NCBI GenBank assembly: GCA_004210455.1
Contig: SEFA01000026.1
Span: forward strand, 1-64,000
DNA: 64,000 nt
Origin: Rubrivivax sp.
GTDB lineage: Bacteria > Pseudomonadota > Gammaproteobacteria > Burkholderiales > Burkholderiaceae_C
Reading direction: 5' to 3'
Both the position numbers and the translations under genes were made by a program. The notes beneath the pieces were generated by a model. The model saw only the letters and a program-made list of their open reading frames with translations. It had not been told where the DNA came from and did no database searches. How positions within the stretch are numbered: the first letter of the stretch is position 1; every line of letters begins with the position of its first letter. Below, one piece after another: positions 21,185 to 50,583 of this stretch.

Positions 21185-21904
21185 ATGATCGGCAATCTCG
21201 AAGTCAGTCCCGCGAGCCCGCAGGAGGCCGATCCCGTGTTCGCCGATGTCATCGTCGTGCATCGCCATCCGCTCTTGCGGGCGGGGATCGCGACGGCGCT
21301 GTCGTCGGCGTCGATGCGCTGCGATGCCAGCGGCACGGTCGTGCCCGGACCGACCGTTCGAGGCTGTCCGAGACTGCTCGTCGGCGATCATGACGACGCC
21401 GTGTTTGCGCTGCTGGCGCCGCGCGCCGCCGACGTGCCGGCCGTCGACGTCCGTCCGCATTGGCTCATCGTCACCTCGACGGTGACCAGCAGGCGGGTGC
21501 GCGTGGCCATGGCCGCCGGCGCGACGGGATACGTCCATGCCTCGTGCACGCTGGAGGAGCTTCGGGAAGCCGCGTGCACGGTCGCCGCGGGTCGTCGCTA
21601 CCTGTGCCGCACGGCGGCCGCCGCCGTGGCCGAGGGCTGGCCGGGCGACGCCCTGACGCCGCGCGAATTCGACGTGCTCACCATGCTCTGTGTCGGCCTG
21701 GACAACAAGTCCATCGGCCTTCGATTGGGCATCGCGCCGGGAACGATCAAGACGCATGTGAAGACGCTGCTGCACAAGTTGAACGTCAACAGCAGGACGC
21801 AGGCCGTCATCGAAGCCATGCGTCGCGACCTGCTCGACGAATGGCCGACCGACCCGGCGCGTTCCTCTTTGCGCGACACAGTGTGGCAGTCGCCGGGGCT
21901 ATAA
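21185..21904 (+). CDS. LuxR-type regulator with atypical receiver domain
   Basis: 239 aa from ATG 21185 (a GTG lies one codon earlier). The N-terminal half is receiver-like (VFADVIVVHRHPLLRAGIA) with His/Arg where the acidic pair normally sits and HAS instead of the Lys motif; an Asp is kept at LLVGDHDD. The LuxR helix-turn-helix is intact (LTPREFDVLTML, NKSIGLRLGIAPGTIKTHVKTLL). It shares architecture with the regulators at 13687 and 15286, making three related atypical regulators within 8 kb. Confidence 0.83.
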   Translation: MIGNLEVSPASPQEADPVFADVIVVHRHPLLRAGIATALSSASMRCDASGTVVPGPTVRGCPRLLVGDHDDAVFALLAPRAADVPAVDVRPHWLIVTSTVTSRRVRVAMAAGATGYVHASCTLEELREAACTVAAGRRYLCRTAAAAVAEGWPGDALTPREFDVLTMLCVGLDNKSIGLRLGIAPGTIKTHVKTLLHKLNVNSRTQAVIEAMRRDLLDEWPTDPARSSLRDTVWQSPGL

Positions 21905-33634: not shown

Positions 33635-33703
33635 TCCAGGACCTGTCGACCGGGGTCGTCGGGAAGCAAACGAAAAAGGATTTGGAAGAACCGCAATCTG
33701 TCG

Positions 33704-34031
33704 ATGGCCAGCGACGCATGGACCGGGGCGCTGGTGAAGGCGCAGATGCCGGTCGTGACGGTGGCGCCCAACGACACGCTGCTGGAAAAGCTCAAGAGCA
33801 ACATGCAGGAAGTGCGCGCGCGGCGGCGAGTTGTTGGCGTTCGCCGACGGCGATACGAAGATCGTCAGCGAGCCGGAGCGCCACGACCTCCGCATGCTGG
33901 AACACCACGGCGCACTGGGCCTGATTCTGCGCACGGTGCCGCTTCAGCTGCTGACGTATCACACGGCCTGCGCACGCGGGACGGACGTGGCCAAGCCGCA
34001 TAACTTGGCGAAGAACGTGCCGGTGGAGTGA
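33704..34031 (+). pseudogene. glmS: Frameshifted 3' fragment of glmS (glucosamine-6-phosphate synthase)
   Basis: Only about the last 105-110 codons of GlmS are present. The first frame gives [20 protein letters not shown] and [13 protein letters not shown] +/-1 shift near 33815-33830 then leads to a second frame with [36 protein letters not shown] and the terminal NLAKNVPVE of the GlmS sugar isomerase domain. The N-terminal glutaminase and most of the isomerase domain are missing, so this cannot be functional. It sits at the left edge of a low-GC island, and the glmS 3' end is a classic integration landmark. Confidence 0.85.
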
Positions 34032-34293
34032 TCCCAAGGGGAGGAGGGGCCATGCGGTCCACTCCAAGTCCACCATCTGCTGGCGATTCCCGGCCCCGGG
34101 CCTGCGAGGTCCACGAGAAGAAAGGATGTCGGAACGGCCGTATTCCGATGGCTCCAATCGTTCACGTCATCAAAAGAGCTATTGACCTGACCTTCCGCTC
34201 GACTTCCGCACAACGCTGCTGGCCCATTCTGATCGGCCTCCTCTCAGAGTAGGGGGTCTGCGCAGAGAGCTTTCTTGCACTGCCGCACCGCCA

Positions 34294-37200
34294 TCAAGCT
34301 GCGTCTGCTGCTGGGCGCGGCAATGCGGGAGGGGGCACCGCCTTTGGAGGCACTAGAGCCGTATCCCCGATCGAAAGCTGGATGCTTCGCGTCATGAAGT
34401 ACAGAAGTTTGCGGTCTGCGGTGAGGATGCCGGACATGAAGCCTTGGCCAAGCAGCGGGAGCAGTTGCGTGATGAACCGACGCTCGACGGCAACTTGGTC
34501 TTTGAGGCGCCAGACGAGAGAGCTCTGTCGGAAAAGCTCAAGCATGTTGTCAACAGACTTCGACGACATGAAGTGCCGCCAGAGAATGTCGTGGCACTTG
34601 TTGAACAGCCAATCCATGCGCTGATTAAACAAGTATGAATACGCTCGCGTGCAATCCAATAACGCTTCCTGAGTCAGTGAGCCCGTCTGATTCAAGGACA
34701 ACTGCGCAAGCTCAAGAGATGCACGAATGAAGTTGTACGCTTCGTTCTCGCGGCGCGCGTTTTGCACAGCCTCCTGCAGGATAGCTTTCTTGCGCTCAGG
34801 GTCCTTGACTTTTGCTGCGCGCTCGATGGCTAGATTGTTGGACACGACGAACGCCTTACGCTTTATGGCTTCTTCTTGCAGGCGCAGCAGTTGGTTGTCT
34901 CGGTCTGCAAGATTTGCGTCGTCGTTTGAGATCGCGATGGCCTTGGCTTGGAGCCCGAGGTTAGTTTTCGGATCAATACGTTGGGCCCGCTGTGCGATGT
35001 CGACGATCTCAGCGCGGTCAACCTTGAGAGACTGACTTGCCAAGGCCAAGCCTAGGAGAACCTGCTGACGCATTGCTTTGGTCTTCGCAGTCTTCTCACA
35101 GATTTTAAGCAACTCGCGAGAACGTTCGCACTCGCCAATCATCCGCAACGCTTGTGCGTACTGAACCCGCGCCAGCTCTAGGTCAAGATCGACAACCAAG
35201 CCGGAGCGTTCATGCAACGGCAGTAGATCGTCATATAGGCCCGCAACGCTTCGATAGTGATCACCGGAGATCAATTGAGCGACAAATGCCGTCGCCAATG
35301 CAAGGGCCGTTTTGGCCTTAGAGGATAGACCACTACCAAGTGCTGCTCTTGTGGCGCGAAGGATCATCGTGCACGCATTGCCAATCTCCCGTGCGCTACA
35401 CCGAGAGTCTTTAAATTTCAGATCCGCCGGCGTACGAATCCCTCGCAACTCCCATTCATCCCCAAAGTAAAGCGACAGGGCTTTCGAACTCAATGTCCTG
35501 AGCTCAGCATCGGAGAGGGATCGAATGATGTACTCGCGTACGGGTCGCCGTACAACTAGCGCGCGACCGTCCTCCGCGATCGAACCTTGATTGCCGATCA
35601 AACTCACGGAAACCGCCTCGACCAACGCAAGTTCGACCAGTCGAGTCGCGTGACCAGGGAAAAACGCGCGCGTGCCGAAGAAGCGTCGCACCCGTGCATA
35701 CTGTTCTCCCTGAGGGAACATCGCCAGCACCTTGAGCAAGGCGTAGGCGCGGCTGCTGACGTCGTCTCTAGCCTCCGCGAGCTCTTGGATCGTCCTGGCC
35801 AAGCTTGGCGAGACGTCGCGGTTGACGATTTGCTTGCCAGCCACATCGGTGTCTATCTCAAGCAAATCCCGGAGGCCCACGACGTCCATTTCCTTGAGTG
35901 CGATGTCAATCTGGAAGGGGATACCGTCGGTGTGGCGGTGCAGCCGCCCGGCAGCATCAGGCTTGGTCAGGTGTGCGCCGCCCTTCGGGTGTGCTCCAAG
36001 GTACAGGGCCGTATCTGGCTCGTCCAATGCAGTCAGCTCAATTACTTGCAACGAGGTATCGCTTGGCGCCGACCGTGACCGAACGATCACGCAGAGTTCG
36101 GGGCAGTAGTCGAGGATGACCTGTACGAGTCCTTGTATCTGCTGCGCAATGGCAGAGGTGTCACCTGTCGCGCTAGCCACCTGCTCCAACTCCACATCGT
36201 CCAGAACGAGAATCGCCTCACCTTCGTCCGCCAAGCCCGAGCACAGGCGTGTGAAGCCGCAGCCAATGCGCTCCGACAAGCCTTCCACCACCTCCTCCTG
36301 CGTGTGGAACTTGTGAAGGTCCAAGTAATAAATCGGTCCGCGACGACCGAGTAATTGGAGCTGGACGCCATAGATGAATTCGTCTCCAGCCAGTCCCCAA
36401 TCGGTGACCAGCCATGCCTGGCGTTTCTCTTTCAATGCGGCAAGAAAGACGCTGCGCTCACCCTTTCGCACAGCGGCATGTGCCTCATTGAACGCCACTG
36501 GTCGAGTCAGGCGCGCGAGCACGTCCTTGATGCCGGTAGTGATGGCAAGAGGATCGATTCGGTCCTCGGGAGCAGGTGTGGGGATGAGTCCCTCAGAGAT
36601 AGTCGTTCCGACAACTGGGTCCAAGACCAAGTCGCAGTAGTTGTCCTCGGTCAACAGCCAGTCTTGATCGGCGACCAGACGCGGTGAAGCACCAGATTTT
36701 TTCCGCAGGATGCGAGGCCAGATTCGTATTGACCGTGCTCCCCCAACGGCAGGAATTTGAATCACGGCATATCCATGACTTCTTTCAATCTTGTCCTCGC
36801 CGTACGACTCTAAGCCAAACAAAGATGCGGCCTGAATCTCATGCCGGATCGGCCCCCCCGAGATTGACGTCGACCTTGAACGTGCCTCGTGCATGTGTCC
36901 GAAGAGATGAGCGTCGAACCTGCCGTCCGTGTTGAGTTCTTCTGCCCAGAGCTTTTGCGATGTGGGATGAAGCCACGCAAGTGGGTGATGCGTGATCAGC
37001 AAACGAAAATCATGCCGTGCACACCAGGCGTCAGGAGCGTTGGCCGTGACACCCATCAGTTGACGCGGATGGACGCACAAGCGACCTAGAAAATCTCCCC
37101 CAGCGCATTGCAACCAAGCTGAATTCAGTCCAATGAGGCCGATGCGATTTGAACCCTTCTGGAATGTGGCCGCGACGTCTCCAGGAAGAATGCCTCTGAC

Positions 37201-37683
37201 GGTCGCTAGGAAGGGTATTGCCGTCCCGACTTGGTCGACCCATGCCTCGTAATTCTCGAACCACTTGGCTACCGCTTGCCGGTAGTGAGAGTCGCTTGAT
37301 TTCCAGAAGTCAGCCTGTACCGCTGCGTCGTCCCACCAGGCGGTCATGACTTTCCCAGCGGGATCCATCTTGGCTGGTCGCGCGAGGTCATGATTGCCAG
37401 GAACGACAAAGAGCTTGGGAACAGAACCCAAGCCCTTGATATGTTCCCAAAGATCGATCAGAAGCCGAGTCAGTTGATCGAATTCATCCGAGCCCGCCTG
37501 CTGCGTCAGGTCGCCCGAGAAGATCACCAGATCCCATGGCCCGGTGCGGGCATGCATGTTTCGCAGGTCTTCGTACAGTGCGGTCCGAAACGTTGGCCAC
37601 ATCCAGTCTTGGCCAATCAATCCCAGGTGCAAGTCGCTCAGATGAAGCACGCGAGTCGGTTCACCAGCACTCTTGTTCTCCAT
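34294..37683 (-). CDS. Metallophosphoesterase / STAND-like NTPase / helical-repeat protein, candidate defence protein
   Basis: 1129 aa. Residues 10-330 form a calcineurin-like metallophosphoesterase with all metal motifs: SDLHLG (D17, H19), SGDLT (D58), PGNHD (96-99), ITHHP (232-233) and FGHMH (262-265). A STAND-like core follows at about 385-680, with TDWGLAGDEF where a Walker A loop is expected (no GK[ST]), a Walker B-like AILVLDDVE near 490, VIVRSRS near 535 and a TDGIPF motif. Residues about 700-1100 are alpha-helical repeats of TPR character. Effector-NTPase-repeat order is the plan of anti-phage STAND proteins; function is inferred. GC content is clearly below that of the neighbours. 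It is divergent from the membrane protein at 37914. Confidence 0.82.
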   Translation of the reverse strand: MENKSAGEPTRVLHLSDLHLGLIGQDWMWPTFRTALYEDLRNMHARTGPWDLVIFSGDLTQQAGSDEFDQLTRLLIDLWEHIKGLGSVPKLFVVPGNHDLARPAKMDPAGKVMTAWWDDAAVQADFWKSSDSHYRQAVAKWFENYEAWVDQVGTAIPFLATVRGILPGDVAATFQKGSNRIGLIGLNSAWLQCAGGDFLGRLCVHPRQLMGVTANAPDAWCARHDFRLLITHHPLAWLHPTSQKLWAEELNTDGRFDAHLFGHMHEARSRSTSISGGPIRHEIQAASLFGLESYGEDKIERSHGYAVIQIPAVGGARSIRIWPRILRKKSGASPRLVADQDWLLTEDNYCDLVLDPVVGTTISEGLIPTPAPEDRIDPLAITTGIKDVLARLTRPVAFNEAHAAVRKGERSVFLAALKEKRQAWLVTDWGLAGDEFIYGVQLQLLGRRGPIYYLDLHKFHTQEEVVEGLSERIGCGFTRLCSGLADEGEAILVLDDVELEQVASATGDTSAIAQQIQGLVQVILDYCPELCVIVRSRSAPSDTSLQVIELTALDEPDTALYLGAHPKGGAHLTKPDAAGRLHRHTDGIPFQIDIALKEMDVVGLRDLLEIDTDVAGKQIVNRDVSPSLARTIQELAEARDDVSSRAYALLKVLAMFPQGEQYARVRRFFGTRAFFPGHATRLVELALVEAVSVSLIGNQGSIAEDGRALVVRRPVREYIIRSLSDAELRTLSSKALSLYFGDEWELRGIRTPADLKFKDSRCSAREIGNACTMILRATRAALGSGLSSKAKTALALATAFVAQLISGDHYRSVAGLYDDLLPLHERSGLVVDLDLELARVQYAQALRMIGECERSRELLKICEKTAKTKAMRQQVLLGLALASQSLKVDRAEIVDIAQRAQRIDPKTNLGLQAKAIAISNDDANLADRDNQLLRLQEEAIKRKAFVVSNNLAIERAAKVKDPERKKAILQEAVQNARRENEAYNFIRASLELAQLSLNQTGSLTQEALLDCTRAYSYLFNQRMDWLFNKCHDILWRHFMSSKSVDNMLELFRQSSLVWRLKDQVAVERRFITQLLPLLGQGFMSGILTADRKLLYFMTRSIQLSIGDTALVPPKAVPPPALPRPAADAA

Positions 37684-37913
37684 TTTCCTTCCTCCCCTTC
37701 CAATCGCTCTGAGCGCCTTTTTCGTATGAGCCGAGAGTAGCAGAGTAAATCCAACAGCCTCCCTCGGAGGAAGGGAGAGTCATCACGAACACGCCATTCG
37801 GATGAGACCGCAACTCCTCAGTTGGCGAGGCAGATTCCGATTGGCTGGCTCGCCTGGTGAGCCACCAGGATGCGAAGCTCCCTCCCACATACATTCCGTG
37901 GGAGGAATCATTG

Positions 37914-38846
37914 ATGGACTTCGTATCCTTTGCCGGCGCTCTGAAAGACCTGTTCTCCGCGCTCTCTGGTTTTGGCTTGACCGCAGGCGGCACGGCCATC
38001 GTCGCGGTCTGCGCTTTGCTTTACAGCCGGACGTCCTCGGCCCACCCGGTGCTTGCCCTGTTGTGGATGCGTTTCTTCGGCAAACTGACCATCGATGATG
38101 CGAAGGTCCAGAAGTATGTAGACGAGCTGAACAGTCTTTCCCGCTTCACCTTCTTCACGCGGATCCGCTCCCAGACCTTGCGTGACGCCCATGGCGTACT
38201 GGACTGGTGCCAGCAATGGAACGTGGCACCTTCGCTGGTGCGCGCGTGCGGAGACAACTTTGATCTGACGCTGCCCGGGCTCAGGAACGGCAAGGGCCCT
38301 AAGGGTTGGTCGCTCGTGTTCCTGTTCTTGATCTTCACACTCATGACGACTGCGGGGATCGGCAGCGCCGCGCTCATGGTGCCGGACGCCGCGCTGGTGA
38401 CGTTCAACGATTCCGGCAACTCACTCTGGTTGTCTGAGACGTCGGCGCTGCGCTTCCCAGTGCGCGGGAAGAAGAGACTTGAACAGCACGACTGCAAAGA
38501 GCCGGGAGGCGAGTTGAGTCAACGCACCGGATTTGCCGAAGGCGAGGTGGAGATCCTGTGCTCGTTCTTCTCGGGCAAGGACAAGTCGCCCGCAGAGTAT
38601 GTGGAGCGGAACGTTCAGCAGAACAGGACCGCGCTCGGCGTGGTGGGCGCGATGAGCCTCGTCTTTGCCTTTGTGATCTGGGGTGAAGTGCGCCGCAACG
38701 TCGCGGCAAGCCAACTGGAAAAACATCTCTTGAGGCACGCAGAACGAGTCAAAGGTCCGCTTACTGAGGGCGACAAGGCCGAGCCAGACGCCCCATCGGT
38801 CGGCGTGCTCGCCATGGATGCGAAGCTCTTGGCCCGGCAGGACTGA
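37914..38846 (+). CDS. Membrane protein of unknown function in the low-GC island
   Basis: 310 aa from the ATG with GGAGG 8 nt upstream. Three hydrophobic segments are visible: about 17-37 (TAGGTAIVAVCALLY), about 130-155 (LVFLFLIFTLMTTAGIGSAA) and about 245-265 (ALGVVGAMSLVFAFVIW). The 100 residues between the last two hold two Cys (HDC and ILCSFF) and may be periplasmic. No family is recognised with confidence. It is divergently transcribed from the metallophosphoesterase-STAND gene across 230 bp and ends 15 nt before a convergent gene, so it may be the partner of the former. Confidence 0.75.
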   Translation: MDFVSFAGALKDLFSALSGFGLTAGGTAIVAVCALLYSRTSSAHPVLALLWMRFFGKLTIDDAKVQKYVDELNSLSRFTFFTRIRSQTLRDAHGVLDWCQQWNVAPSLVRACGDNFDLTLPGLRNGKGPKGWSLVFLFLIFTLMTTAGIGSAALMVPDAALVTFNDSGNSLWLSETSALRFPVRGKKRLEQHDCKEPGGELSQRTGFAEGEVEILCSFFSGKDKSPAEYVERNVQQNRTALGVVGAMSLVFAFVIWGEVRRNVAASQLEKHLLRHAERVKGPLTEGDKAEPDAPSVGVLAMDAKLLARQD

Positions 38847-38861
38847 TGCCCGCTCCCGACA

Positions 38862-39377
38862 TTAGCTCGCCGATCCCCCGAACCGCACCCGCTCCGGCTC
38901 TTCCATCGCCTTCGGCGTGCTGCTGGCCAGGCAGTTGGTCGAGTCGTCGAGCGTCAGCACGAAGTTGTTGATCGGGTTGTTGAACTGGTAGCTGAGCGAG
39001 TAGATCGCGCCATACACGCCCGGCGGCGGACGCGACGGATCGAAGTAGGCGCCGAACACCCACTTGCCGTAGATCCCCAGCGGCGACTGCTCGTACCGCT
39101 GGCCCTCGAAGGTCGTCTGCGCCTTCATGATCTGCGTGGCGGGGTTGATGGTGTGCTTGCTCACCGACTTCTTGCCGAGCAGCCTGCCGAACTTCTCGCG
39201 GCAGACCGCGTCCTTCGACGGATCGGCCGAGCCGTTCTTCTGCAGACCGATGATCGACTTGATCTCGGTGGTCGTCATGCCTTCCTTGGGCACGCTCGGT
39301 GGATCCCCGGCCGCCTGGGCCGCGAAGGCCGACAGCAGCAGAGGGAGTGGGGCGACGGAGACGTGACGCTGTGCCAT
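38862..39377 (-). CDS. Secreted protein of unknown function
   Basis: 171 aa from ATG 39377, preceded by AAGGA 8 nt upstream. A signal peptide is visible (SVAPLPLLLSAFAAQAAG). The mature part has FDPSRPPPGVYGAIYSLSYQ and a Cys near each end (AVCREKF, STNCLASS) that may pair. No family is recognised. It is divergent from the GH16 glucanase gene, with a LacI-type palindrome between them, which hints at joint control. Confidence 0.7.
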   Translation of the reverse strand: MAQRHVSVAPLPLLLSAFAAQAAGDPPSVPKEGMTTTEIKSIIGLQKNGSADPSKDAVCREKFGRLLGKKSVSKHTINPATQIMKAQTTFEGQRYEQSPLGIYGKWVFGAYFDPSRPPPGVYGAIYSLSYQFNNPINNFVLTLDDSTNCLASSTPKAMEEPERVRFGGSAS

Positions 39378-39535
39378 GGTGTGAAGTCCTTTCGCGCCGG
39401 CACTTGCCGGCGGGGCCATGGTCGAGGGGCGCCGGACGGCCGCCCATCGGCGCGCGGCTGAATCCGGGGACTCCCGAATCCTGAGCTCACACACCGACCC
39501 CTGCTTTCAAGCCGTTTCAATCCAAAACCCCATTT

Positions 39536-48306: not shown

Positions 48307-49191
48307 TTAGGGCGCTTTCTTCCCAAGCCTTTCCTTGAGCCTTTCTGCGTTTTCCGCACCTTTAGTGCGCGCCGCACTACTGATGCCAGACAAATCGAAA
48401 CTTGAATTCGGTACAGCGTAACTTTCCGCGATCTTCAGATAGTTGATGACCCGCGTGCCGATGGCCGGGTCCGCTGACGCCAGCTTCAGGGCGTATCGTG
48501 CTGCATCCTGCTCATCCCGTGTAATGCCGAAGACTTTGGTGTCATACATGGCCACGGTCGACACAGCTTTGACGTCACCGGAACTCGCATCGCTCACGAC
48601 GCGAGCAAGTGTTGCGGGCTCGCGAGAACCAGCTTCAAAGCTCTCGATGGCCGCGCCAACTACACCTTGCTGTACGGCCAGATCCAGCAGACGCAAGCGC
48701 GCCCGGCTACGGTCCCCAGGCACGGTCTGACAGGAAGCGTTAATGCGCTGATACTCCTGCAGTCGCTCCATCCGTAGAGCTTGTATCGCGGGATCAACGT
48801 TAGGCCGAGCACCTTGCGCGCCTTCTACCTCCAGGATCTTCAGGTTGATCTCGCACTCCTTCAACTTGGCCGCGAGGTTTGCGGCCATGGGACCGTCCAT
48901 GGCGGCAAGAGCGCGCTCTACCTGATCGTTCAAGGTTCCAGCTGCCTCATGGCCGCTGGGCAATGCAGTGGTCGGGGGCAATTTGCCCTCACCTGACGCC
49001 AGCGATTCTGAAGTGGAAGCGCCGGCTTCCGCCTTATTGACGCCGACTGACTGGACCCCGTTCAAGGGCGTGACTCCTGACGGGCGGATCGCATCAGAAG
49101 GACTGTCTTCGTTGAGCTTCCACGCGCCGATCAGGATCAGGCATCCTCCTGCAATGACGGCAGGCAGGATGTATTTTTTCTCAAGCGCCAT
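48307..49191 (-). CDS. Membrane-anchored protein of unknown function
   Basis: 294 aa. One N-terminal membrane segment (YILPAVIAGGCLILIGAW) follows a short cytoplasmic lead, so the rest is periplasmic. The middle is Ser/Gly-rich and disordered. The region from about 85 to 290 is helical with a few Cys (LKECEIN, NASCQTV). No family is recognised. GC content is lower than in the TRAP and prp genes. It is immediately downstream of hipA on the same strand (3-nt gap) and may be cotranscribed with hipBA. Confidence 0.7.
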   Translation of the reverse strand: MALEKKYILPAVIAGGCLILIGAWKLNEDSPSDAIRPSGVTPLNGVQSVGVNKAEAGASTSESLASGEGKLPPTTALPSGHEAAGTLNDQVERALAAMDGPMAANLAAKLKECEINLKILEVEGAQGARPNVDPAIQALRMERLQEYQRINASCQTVPGDRSRARLRLLDLAVQQGVVGAAIESFEAGSREPATLARVVSDASSGDVKAVSTVAMYDTKVFGITRDEQDAARYALKLASADPAIGTRVINYLKIAESYAVPNSSFDLSGISSAARTKGAENAERLKERLGKKAP

Positions 49192-49194
49192 ATA

Positions 49195-50583
49195 TCAATC
49201 TTTGTTCCGCGCTGGGTGTTTCGCCATTCCTCCGGATGCTGTGCTGGTCGCCTTCTGATTGAGCTTCTTCTTCATCGTCGGAATGATGATGTGGCGAAGC
49301 GCCCTCACGAATCGCGATTCTCCGCCCGCATTCACTCGCGCCTTCTCCGGCATCGTCGCGTGCGTCTGCGTCATCGACCGTTCTGCGAGTTCGAGCAGCG
49401 CGTCGGACTTGTCGACCATCTCGGTCACGATGCGCTCCGCAGTGCGGGCATTCAATCCGAGTTCGATTCCTGCATTCACGACGACGTCGCGATTGACGTC
49501 GTGGAACGTCTTCGCTCCGGTAAGAGGGATGGTCATCCTCACGTGCGGCCAGGTCGCTCCTTCGTCCGCAACCGACGCGGTATAGAAGTAGCCCGTTGCA
49601 ATCAGGTCGTAATGAGGCGCGAGTTGAATGCCATTCTTGGAGACGAAGAAGGACAGGTTCTTCAGGTGGTTGTCGTCGTTGGCTACGAGGATGTTGAAGA
49701 CGAGCCAGCGGAAGATCCCGACGCGCGTCTTGATCCGACTGGTCGTCGCCGCAATGATTTCCTTCAAGGCCTGCATGCCCGCACCGGAGTGCTTGTAGAG
49801 ACGACTGCGATTCAGTAGTTGGCAGGCGTCGATGATGTGCAGCCGCGCGACGTCGAGTTCCGGGGCGCCTGAATCGCCCACTGCACGCTTGACCACCTTC
49901 CGATCGAATCGCTCGATGATGTACACAGGCTCAGGCACGTAGTGAATGTGCACGGCGGGCACATCAAGCCTCGCCTCTTTGGCCATGAGCATCGTCAGAT
50001 ATTCGTTCATCACCGACGCCGGATAGGTGCTCGGGTCCGGATGGCTCGGCTTGAGGATATGCGTCGATGCGGTAGCACCCGCAGGCTCGTACAGCTCTCC
50101 GTCGACGTAGCTGACCAGCATCTTGTGCTGCGCGCCGGCGAGTGACATTCGCTTCGACGCTTGGTGGGTCAGCGTTTCCTTGGGAAGGTTGGAGATGCGC
50201 TTGCTCAGTTCCGCATCGGAGAGCGGCAGCAGCGCTTGCGGCTGCGGGATCGGCCCATCCGGAGGCAGCAACGTGAGCGAGCCTGCCGACTCTGCGCCGA
50301 GGTATTCCAGAAGGCCGAAAGCATCCTCGCCCCGGATGTCGGCTTCCTTGCTGATGGCCTCGCGCAGCCGCTCCTCCGGGAGCAGGTTGTCGAAGAACCA
50401 CTGGACGGGGCGGCTGGTGCCGCCATCAACGATGGGGTCCTTGGATCGCGGCAGCCCTGGCGCCAAGGCGAAGCCATCGGGTGCGTCGACCCATGCCGAG
50501 TCGTACTGGAGCGTCCAGATGTCGTCGCCCTCAAGCAGCTCGCCAATCAGGCGTGCTCCGATGAAGATATTCAATCGCCTCAT
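49195..50583 (-). CDS. hipA: HipA-family serine/threonine kinase toxin
   Basis: 462 aa. The N-terminal HipA-type domain (about 1-105) includes WFFDNLLPEERLREAI. The kinase core has SLAGAQHKMLVSYVDGELYE (nucleotide loop), the catalytic NDDNHLKNLSFFV and the metal-binding HYDLIATG. A basic, low-complexity tail (MKKKLNQKATSTASGG) extends the usual length by about 30 residues. HipA toxins phosphorylate a translation factor such as a glutamyl-tRNA synthetase, giving growth arrest. The ATG overlaps the hipB stop. Confidence 0.92.
   Translation of the reverse strand: MRRLNIFIGARLIGELLEGDDIWTLQYDSAWVDAPDGFALAPGLPRSKDPIVDGGTSRPVQWFFDNLLPEERLREAISKEADIRGEDAFGLLEYLGAESAGSLTLLPPDGPIPQPQALLPLSDAELSKRISNLPKETLTHQASKRMSLAGAQHKMLVSYVDGELYEPAGATASTHILKPSHPDPSTYPASVMNEYLTMLMAKEARLDVPAVHIHYVPEPVYIIERFDRKVVKRAVGDSGAPELDVARLHIIDACQLLNRSRLYKHSGAGMQALKEIIAATTSRIKTRVGIFRWLVFNILVANDDNHLKNLSFFVSKNGIQLAPHYDLIATGYFYTASVADEGATWPHVRMTIPLTGAKTFHDVNRDVVVNAGIELGLNARTAERIVTEMVDKSDALLELAERSMTQTHATMPEKARVNAGGESRFVRALRHIIIPTMKKKLNQKATSTASGGMAKHPARNKD

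Follow-up and report, generated by a model that had tools for sequence, protein, structure and literature searches.

Locus and protein architecture

The window analyzed here, a stretch of 64,000 nucleotides from Rubrivivax sp. (contig SEFA01000026.1), contains a reverse-strand gene (34294..37683) for a 1129-amino-acid protein that joins a metallophosphoesterase to a core of the STAND class (signal transduction ATPases with numerous domains) and helical repeats. The gene lies in an inserted island of about 5.86 kb (33638..39493) that is missing from a genome of the same genus (G008), where the bases matching window positions 33637 and 39494 are only 51 bp apart. The GC content is 0.568 in the phosphoesterase gene and 0.607 in the DUF6216 gene beside it, compared with 0.69 and 0.66 in the flanks; together with the empty site, these values bear out the low-GC island described in an initial annotation of this DNA. 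Horizontal acquisition of the island is supported, and the insertion of the phosphoesterase gene is recent.

The calcineurin-like metallophosphoesterase domain, the predicted effector, spans residues ∼10–340 (36664..37656, reverse strand, as are all parts of the protein), was matched by Pfam at 1.7e-12, and carries the DxH, GDxx, GNHD, TH, and GHxH metal motifs of its superfamily; eight metal-ligand residues were invariant in all 20 aligned sequences. It is followed by a STAND-like nucleotide-binding fold (residues ∼386–620; 35824..36528) with Walker B aspartates at residues 495–496 and a GxP motif at residues 587–589, by a winged-helix-like segment recognized from the secondary structure of the model (residues ∼626–722; 35518..35808), and by tetratricopeptide repeat (TPR)-like helical repeats, the predicted sensor (residues 764–1104; 34372..35394), which were assigned from the structural model and from C-terminal motifs common to the SIR2-type proteins described below. 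The model, which ends in helices, matches CED-4 over residues 390–776, including the winged-helix-like segment, and its core, with a helical domain and winged helix, is of the NB-ARC/NACHT type found in STAND NTPases. The plan of effector, STAND-like core, and repeats is supported, as the initial annotation had read it, and the predicted structure that it proposed as a check does contain a STAND-like module. A search of PDB sequences with the whole protein gave no match, and a profile of the STAND part found a Clp ATPase as its best match (E 0.043), with the STAND proteins 8yl6 and 6mfv at a non-significant E of 0.53–0.64.

The altered ATP site

STAND receptors of immunity, whether bacterial, plant, or animal, are considered to rely on bound ATP. 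In the window protein, however, the P-loop is altered (residues 422–436, the LVTDWGLAGDEF region; 36376..36420). The Walker A position was located in two ways, by MAFFT alignment with the SIR2 relatives and by hhalign comparison with NACHT domains, and both place G433 at the lysine and D434 at the Ser/Thr position. The lysine was found in none of the 24 phosphoesterase-type sequences, which thus lack the GxxxxGK[ST] pattern of STAND proteins, and the position after it was Asp or Glu in 15 of the 20 that were aligned. Glycine for lysine is not a rule of this family, because only six of the 20 carry it. The Walker B aspartates D495 and D496 were each kept in 15 of 20 sequences, G587 in all 20, and P589 in 19. 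Among the SIR2-type relatives, by comparison, five of seven readable sequences retain the lysine (three of the five being closely related), and phosphoesterase proteins with other C-termini have intact P-loop patterns wherever such a domain exists. With the lysine missing, a normal Avs-type ATPase cannot be assumed, and the switch probably runs no normal ATP hydrolysis cycle. The initial annotation makes no mention of this loss, and it is the absence of the lysine across a whole mobile family that raises the window protein above one more member of its kind.

Relatives, mobility, and the insertion site

Among 60 related genomes, a full-length match was found only in the genome of origin, and none of the 15 further genomes in its genus had the gene at full length; two of 399 genomes in the order (the source and G303) and one of 369 in the class (the source) had one. 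A pattern-based scan covering 84,980 species genomes yielded 37 loci, of which 21 had the same architecture (one cut by a contig end and one frame-broken), 14 matched in the phosphoesterase only, and two were weak, and a search of viral contigs yielded two loci. Several homologues lie in mobile elements: one with 51% identity (L023) is inside a P2-like prophage, flanked by the GPD gene on one side and the Ogr/GPA genes on the other; L024 has an integrase and a repressor of the S24 type beside it; in Pseudomonas, a plasmid copy that is annotated as two coding sequences (L006) is upstream of a tyrosine recombinase; a lambda-type integrase-like gene and a capsid of the HK97 family are no more than three called genes from L051; and a Tn3/gamma-delta-type resolvase is in the neighborhood of L042. 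Reading of the sequences by eye also suggested transposases as neighbors of L033 and L035, with a resolvase next to L049 and a relaxase next to L050.

Neighboring genes of the homologues were called with a simple codon script, and 120 of the 122 (all but rpoB and rpoC of L038) were compared with PADLOC, with 124 families matched. Known defense genes were present within three called genes at four of 23 loci, the number of independent loci being smaller because L044/L059 and L005/L040 are near-duplicates. These were HsdS (2.9e-120) and PDC-S18 (6.7e-143) at L046, where HsdM (1.5e-214) and HsdR (E 0) lie just past the three-gene limit; a CBASS cyclase (1.5e-136) at L049; AbiLi (1.1e-77) and AbiLii (2.4e-21) at L050; and a partial AbiEii (1.2e-46) at L059. 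Loci of a mainly housekeeping character with no enrichment in defense genes, which the initial annotation named as an outcome that would count against it, were not what was found, and homologues that are mobile and defense-associated are supported.

The effector is exchanged among relatives. Plasmid proteins named SIR2 match residues 371–1081 of the window protein and not its phosphoesterase (16 records in all, two of them full-length; E 2e-7 to 2e-24), and a separate SIR2 gene is directly upstream in Proteus, Vibrio parahaemolyticus, Klebsiella, and, from PADLOC SIR2 matches, Enterobacter; the Proteus pair adjoins a CBASS operon with Cap6, Cap7, and NucC. The SIR2 relatives matched no Avs model in PADLOC, and a search of Escherichia coli genomes with one SIR2 relative gave no match. 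In a tree of the STAND-repeat part, the SIR2 sequences formed one clade (support 1.0) that joined near L038/L041 (0.87); no direction of the swap is drawn, because the tree is unrooted and long-branched. Phosphoesterases ∼40% identical to that of the window protein were joined with Dynamin_N, AAA_35, caspase, NACHT-TPR, NACHT-FGE-sulfatase, and WD40 domains. Calcineurin domains had earlier been predicted to be interchangeable effectors of STAND proteins (PMC8195603, available excerpts).

Individual architectures seen along the way include a phosphoesterase-caspase fusion in a Bryobacterales metagenome-assembled genome (L057:9986-12142; Peptidase_C14, 1e-22), a phosphoesterase-dynamin-type GTPase fusion in Corallococcus (L052:9989-12943; 2.7e-15), and a 1161-amino-acid protein from a genome of the same family (G028; L031:7533-11018, reverse strand) that matches PDC-S60 over most of its length (2.5e-88) and is nearer to DS-8, discussed below, than the window protein is. 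The genome of origin itself holds a second candidate defense protein on contig C67 (L032:8305-12030, reverse strand), of 1241 amino acids, with a phosphoesterase start at residues 583–677 and two TIR-like stretches (ThsB-type matches), next to an open reading frame with a GNPGTGKS P-loop.

A strong match to the right flank occurs in 12 other genomes, and the insertion site was compared in five of these; G015, G014, and G006 were uninformative because only the right flank was kept. G005, of the same genus, has ∼8.95 kb of different DNA at this site (L026:3954-12901), encoding a 1567-amino-acid protein that matches PDC-S37 from end to end (1778 bits, E 0) and also Hhe (6.1e-205), together with an HNH-type match (7.9e-22). 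A 453-amino-acid open reading frame there has no PADLOC family and shares a motif, by eye, with L029:8345-10000. Neither an integrase nor att repeats were recognized in the window insert, and a search of its ends for direct and inverted repeats gave short imperfect pairs only, with no recognizable att site.

Besides the phosphoesterase gene, the island carries three passengers: a DUF6216 membrane-type protein (37857..38846, forward strand; Pfam 2.3e-52); a 210-amino-acid protein with no Pfam match (38862..39494, reverse strand), signal-peptide-like by eye, of which no second copy of note was found in the genome of origin; and a frame-broken 3′ gene fragment (33706..34031, forward strand), which resembles, in its C-terminal sequence, the end of glmS and sits close to where the phosphoesterase gene ends, just before it. 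Fuller copies exist elsewhere, and the DNA of the fragment is 87% identical to the one in G008, 88% to that in G005, and 84% to that in the genome of origin. In G005, the copy precedes by a few kb the region that corresponds to window position 21229 onward, and that in the genome of origin is on another contig (C126); the island or region may therefore have moved from a glmS-side site. Elsewhere in the window, a second low-GC patch (48307-50583; 0.58–0.61) holds a 462-amino-acid open reading frame resembling a HipA-type kinase toxin by eye and one of 294 amino acids.

Interpretation and comparison with known systems

The window gene is probably a horizontally moved anti-phage system made of a single protein. 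Directly observed are the make-up of its domains, the conserved active site, the loss of the lysine, mobility, some defense neighbors, and the effector swap. In the proposed mechanism, the helical repeats would sense a phage-made signal, the CED-4-like core would, judging from its fold, relay it by a change of shape or by assembly, and the N-terminal phosphoesterase, once switched on, would hydrolyze a phosphodiester bond within either a nucleotide or a nucleic acid, so that growth would stop before phage maturation. The lysine-less switch may bind nucleotide without hydrolysis, as proposed for SAMD9, or need none. SIR2 domains in defense are usually NADases, and in view of their exchange with the phosphoesterase, we consider it likelier that a cellular nucleotide is depleted than that DNA is cut; DNA or RNA is a possible substrate. 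It is further possible, and suggested here tentatively, that the proteins form a family of bacterial immune receptors with a nucleotide-independent or hydrolysis-dead STAND switch, a pseudo-ATPase triggered by ligand binding alone that trades phosphoesterase and SIR2 effectors, some of the SIR2 forms still having the lysine.

Several results weigh against a defense role by a STAND receptor. A collection of 50,697 phage records gave no match; 19 of the 23 loci had no defense gene among assignable neighbors; several homologues stand alone amid housekeeping genes (e.g., L037, L041, and L043); two Cas8f matches among the best 25 of the 124 families had no gene assignment; and the STAND homology has modest sequence support, from hhalign comparison with NACHT domains. 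A control of 115 genes, out of 117 called in 20 stretches that began at round-number positions and came from 19 Burkholderiales genomes (two long genes were left out, and host lineage was not matched to that of the loci), also matched 24 PADLOC families, including mad2 in three genes, a DinG-type match (4.2e-123), IetA, DrmC, AriA, MkoB, TRIP13, and others. These were taken as housekeeping look-alikes; because the control gives such matches too, the enrichment of defense genes near homologues is suggestive.

A regulatory or housekeeping phosphoesterase would fit the chromosomal position in most hosts and core-gene neighbors such as rpoB and rpoC at L038, but is very improbable given the absence of a full-length gene from the rest of the genus, the insert with its empty site and low GC, and the effector swapping. 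A similarly slight chance attaches to a two-gene system with the DUF6216 protein: the two low-GC genes are divergent neighbors in one insert, but DUF6216 occurred in none of 50 homologue loci searched (E 0.01), matched no plasmid, and was found in one of 16 genomes of the genus, its own, so that this second gene of the annotated island was rejected as a partner and is a passenger. Cargo with another job, such as maintaining a plasmid or prophage or acting in conflicts among mobile elements instead of against virulent phages, would account for the plasmid and prophage sites of homologues and the lack of matches in the phage collection; it is quite unlikely, however, as many copies stand singly on chromosomes, the neighbors include restriction, CBASS, and Abi genes, and the related DS-8 blocks phage (PMC13092281, available excerpts). 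The same defense role could also be served by a STAND core that is still a working ATP switch, with another residue replacing the lysine and ADP-to-ATP exchange driving assembly. The largely retained Walker B aspartates and GxP motif, the intact fold, and the compensating residue raised by the authors on SAMD9 (PMC5445408, available excerpts) speak for such a switch, but the lysine is uniformly lost, the next Ser/Thr is mostly acidic, the glycines are also worn, and Walker B is gone in about a quarter of sequences, and we consider it unlikely.

Several known systems resemble the probable single-protein system of the window. CED-4 and the NB-ARC of plant NLRs share 14–15% sequence identity with it and have a different effector, and the nucleotide site of CED-4 is active, in contrast to the altered site here. 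DS-8, a DefensePredictor system of a metallophosphatase and NACHT (NCBIfam NF053861, cut-off 790 bits), is already validated as anti-phage; according to the excerpts available, its defense is lost on mutation of either the NACHT ATPase residue or the residues of the metal site (PMC13092281). The window protein likewise has a related N-terminal phosphoesterase (residues 14–273, E 1.6e-13) followed by a STAND-class core, and it resembles the PADLOC candidate PDC-S60 over residues 11–310 (2.6e-20); its NF053861 match, however, stops after the phosphoesterase at 49.3 bits, short of a full-length match, and the ATP site that DS-8 requires is altered. The candidate "uncharacterized defense system" of the initial annotation stands as a probable defense gene, but its kind is not wholly uncharacterized, because DS-8 has been validated. 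The Avs-type plan also proposed there holds for the order of effector, STAND, and repeats, which is that of Avs5 (AVAST type 5; SIR2-STAND-repeats) and is kept by the SIR2-carrying relatives, but not for the ATP site: Avs5 carries GPAGSGKT, and G362A or K363A abolishes its immunity (PMC12931631, available excerpts), whereas the window protein lacks an intact Walker A and matched no Avs model in PADLOC, only PDC-S60, Effector, and PDC-S10. A search of mainly open literature, covering few preprints or subscription journals, found no paper on a phosphoesterase combined with a STAND core that lacks the lysine.

The closest precedent for the lysine-less site is human SAMD9, with homology compared at the level of the STAND fold only. 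In the available excerpts, antiviral SAMD9/SAMD9L and their bacterial homologues have a STAND-like P-loop domain with glycine for the Walker A lysine, as at G433 here, followed by TPRs (PMC5445408, PMC13245274), and SIR2 is upstream, as it is among relatives of the window protein. The window protein differs from SAMD9, which contains GGT/S, AlbA/tRNase, and OB domains, in carrying a phosphoesterase and in having neither a SIR2-like domain nor a C-terminal OB fold. Phosphoesterase effectors, known from DS-8, are extended here to a second receptor type. A mobile family that keeps fold and effector without the lysine would offer a direct test of whether the ATP switch is dispensable, for which the SIR2 relatives that still have it are a natural comparison; if the tentative pseudo-ATPase reading is true, the family would be a bacterial counterpart of SAMD9, catching the loss of the ATP site in progress.
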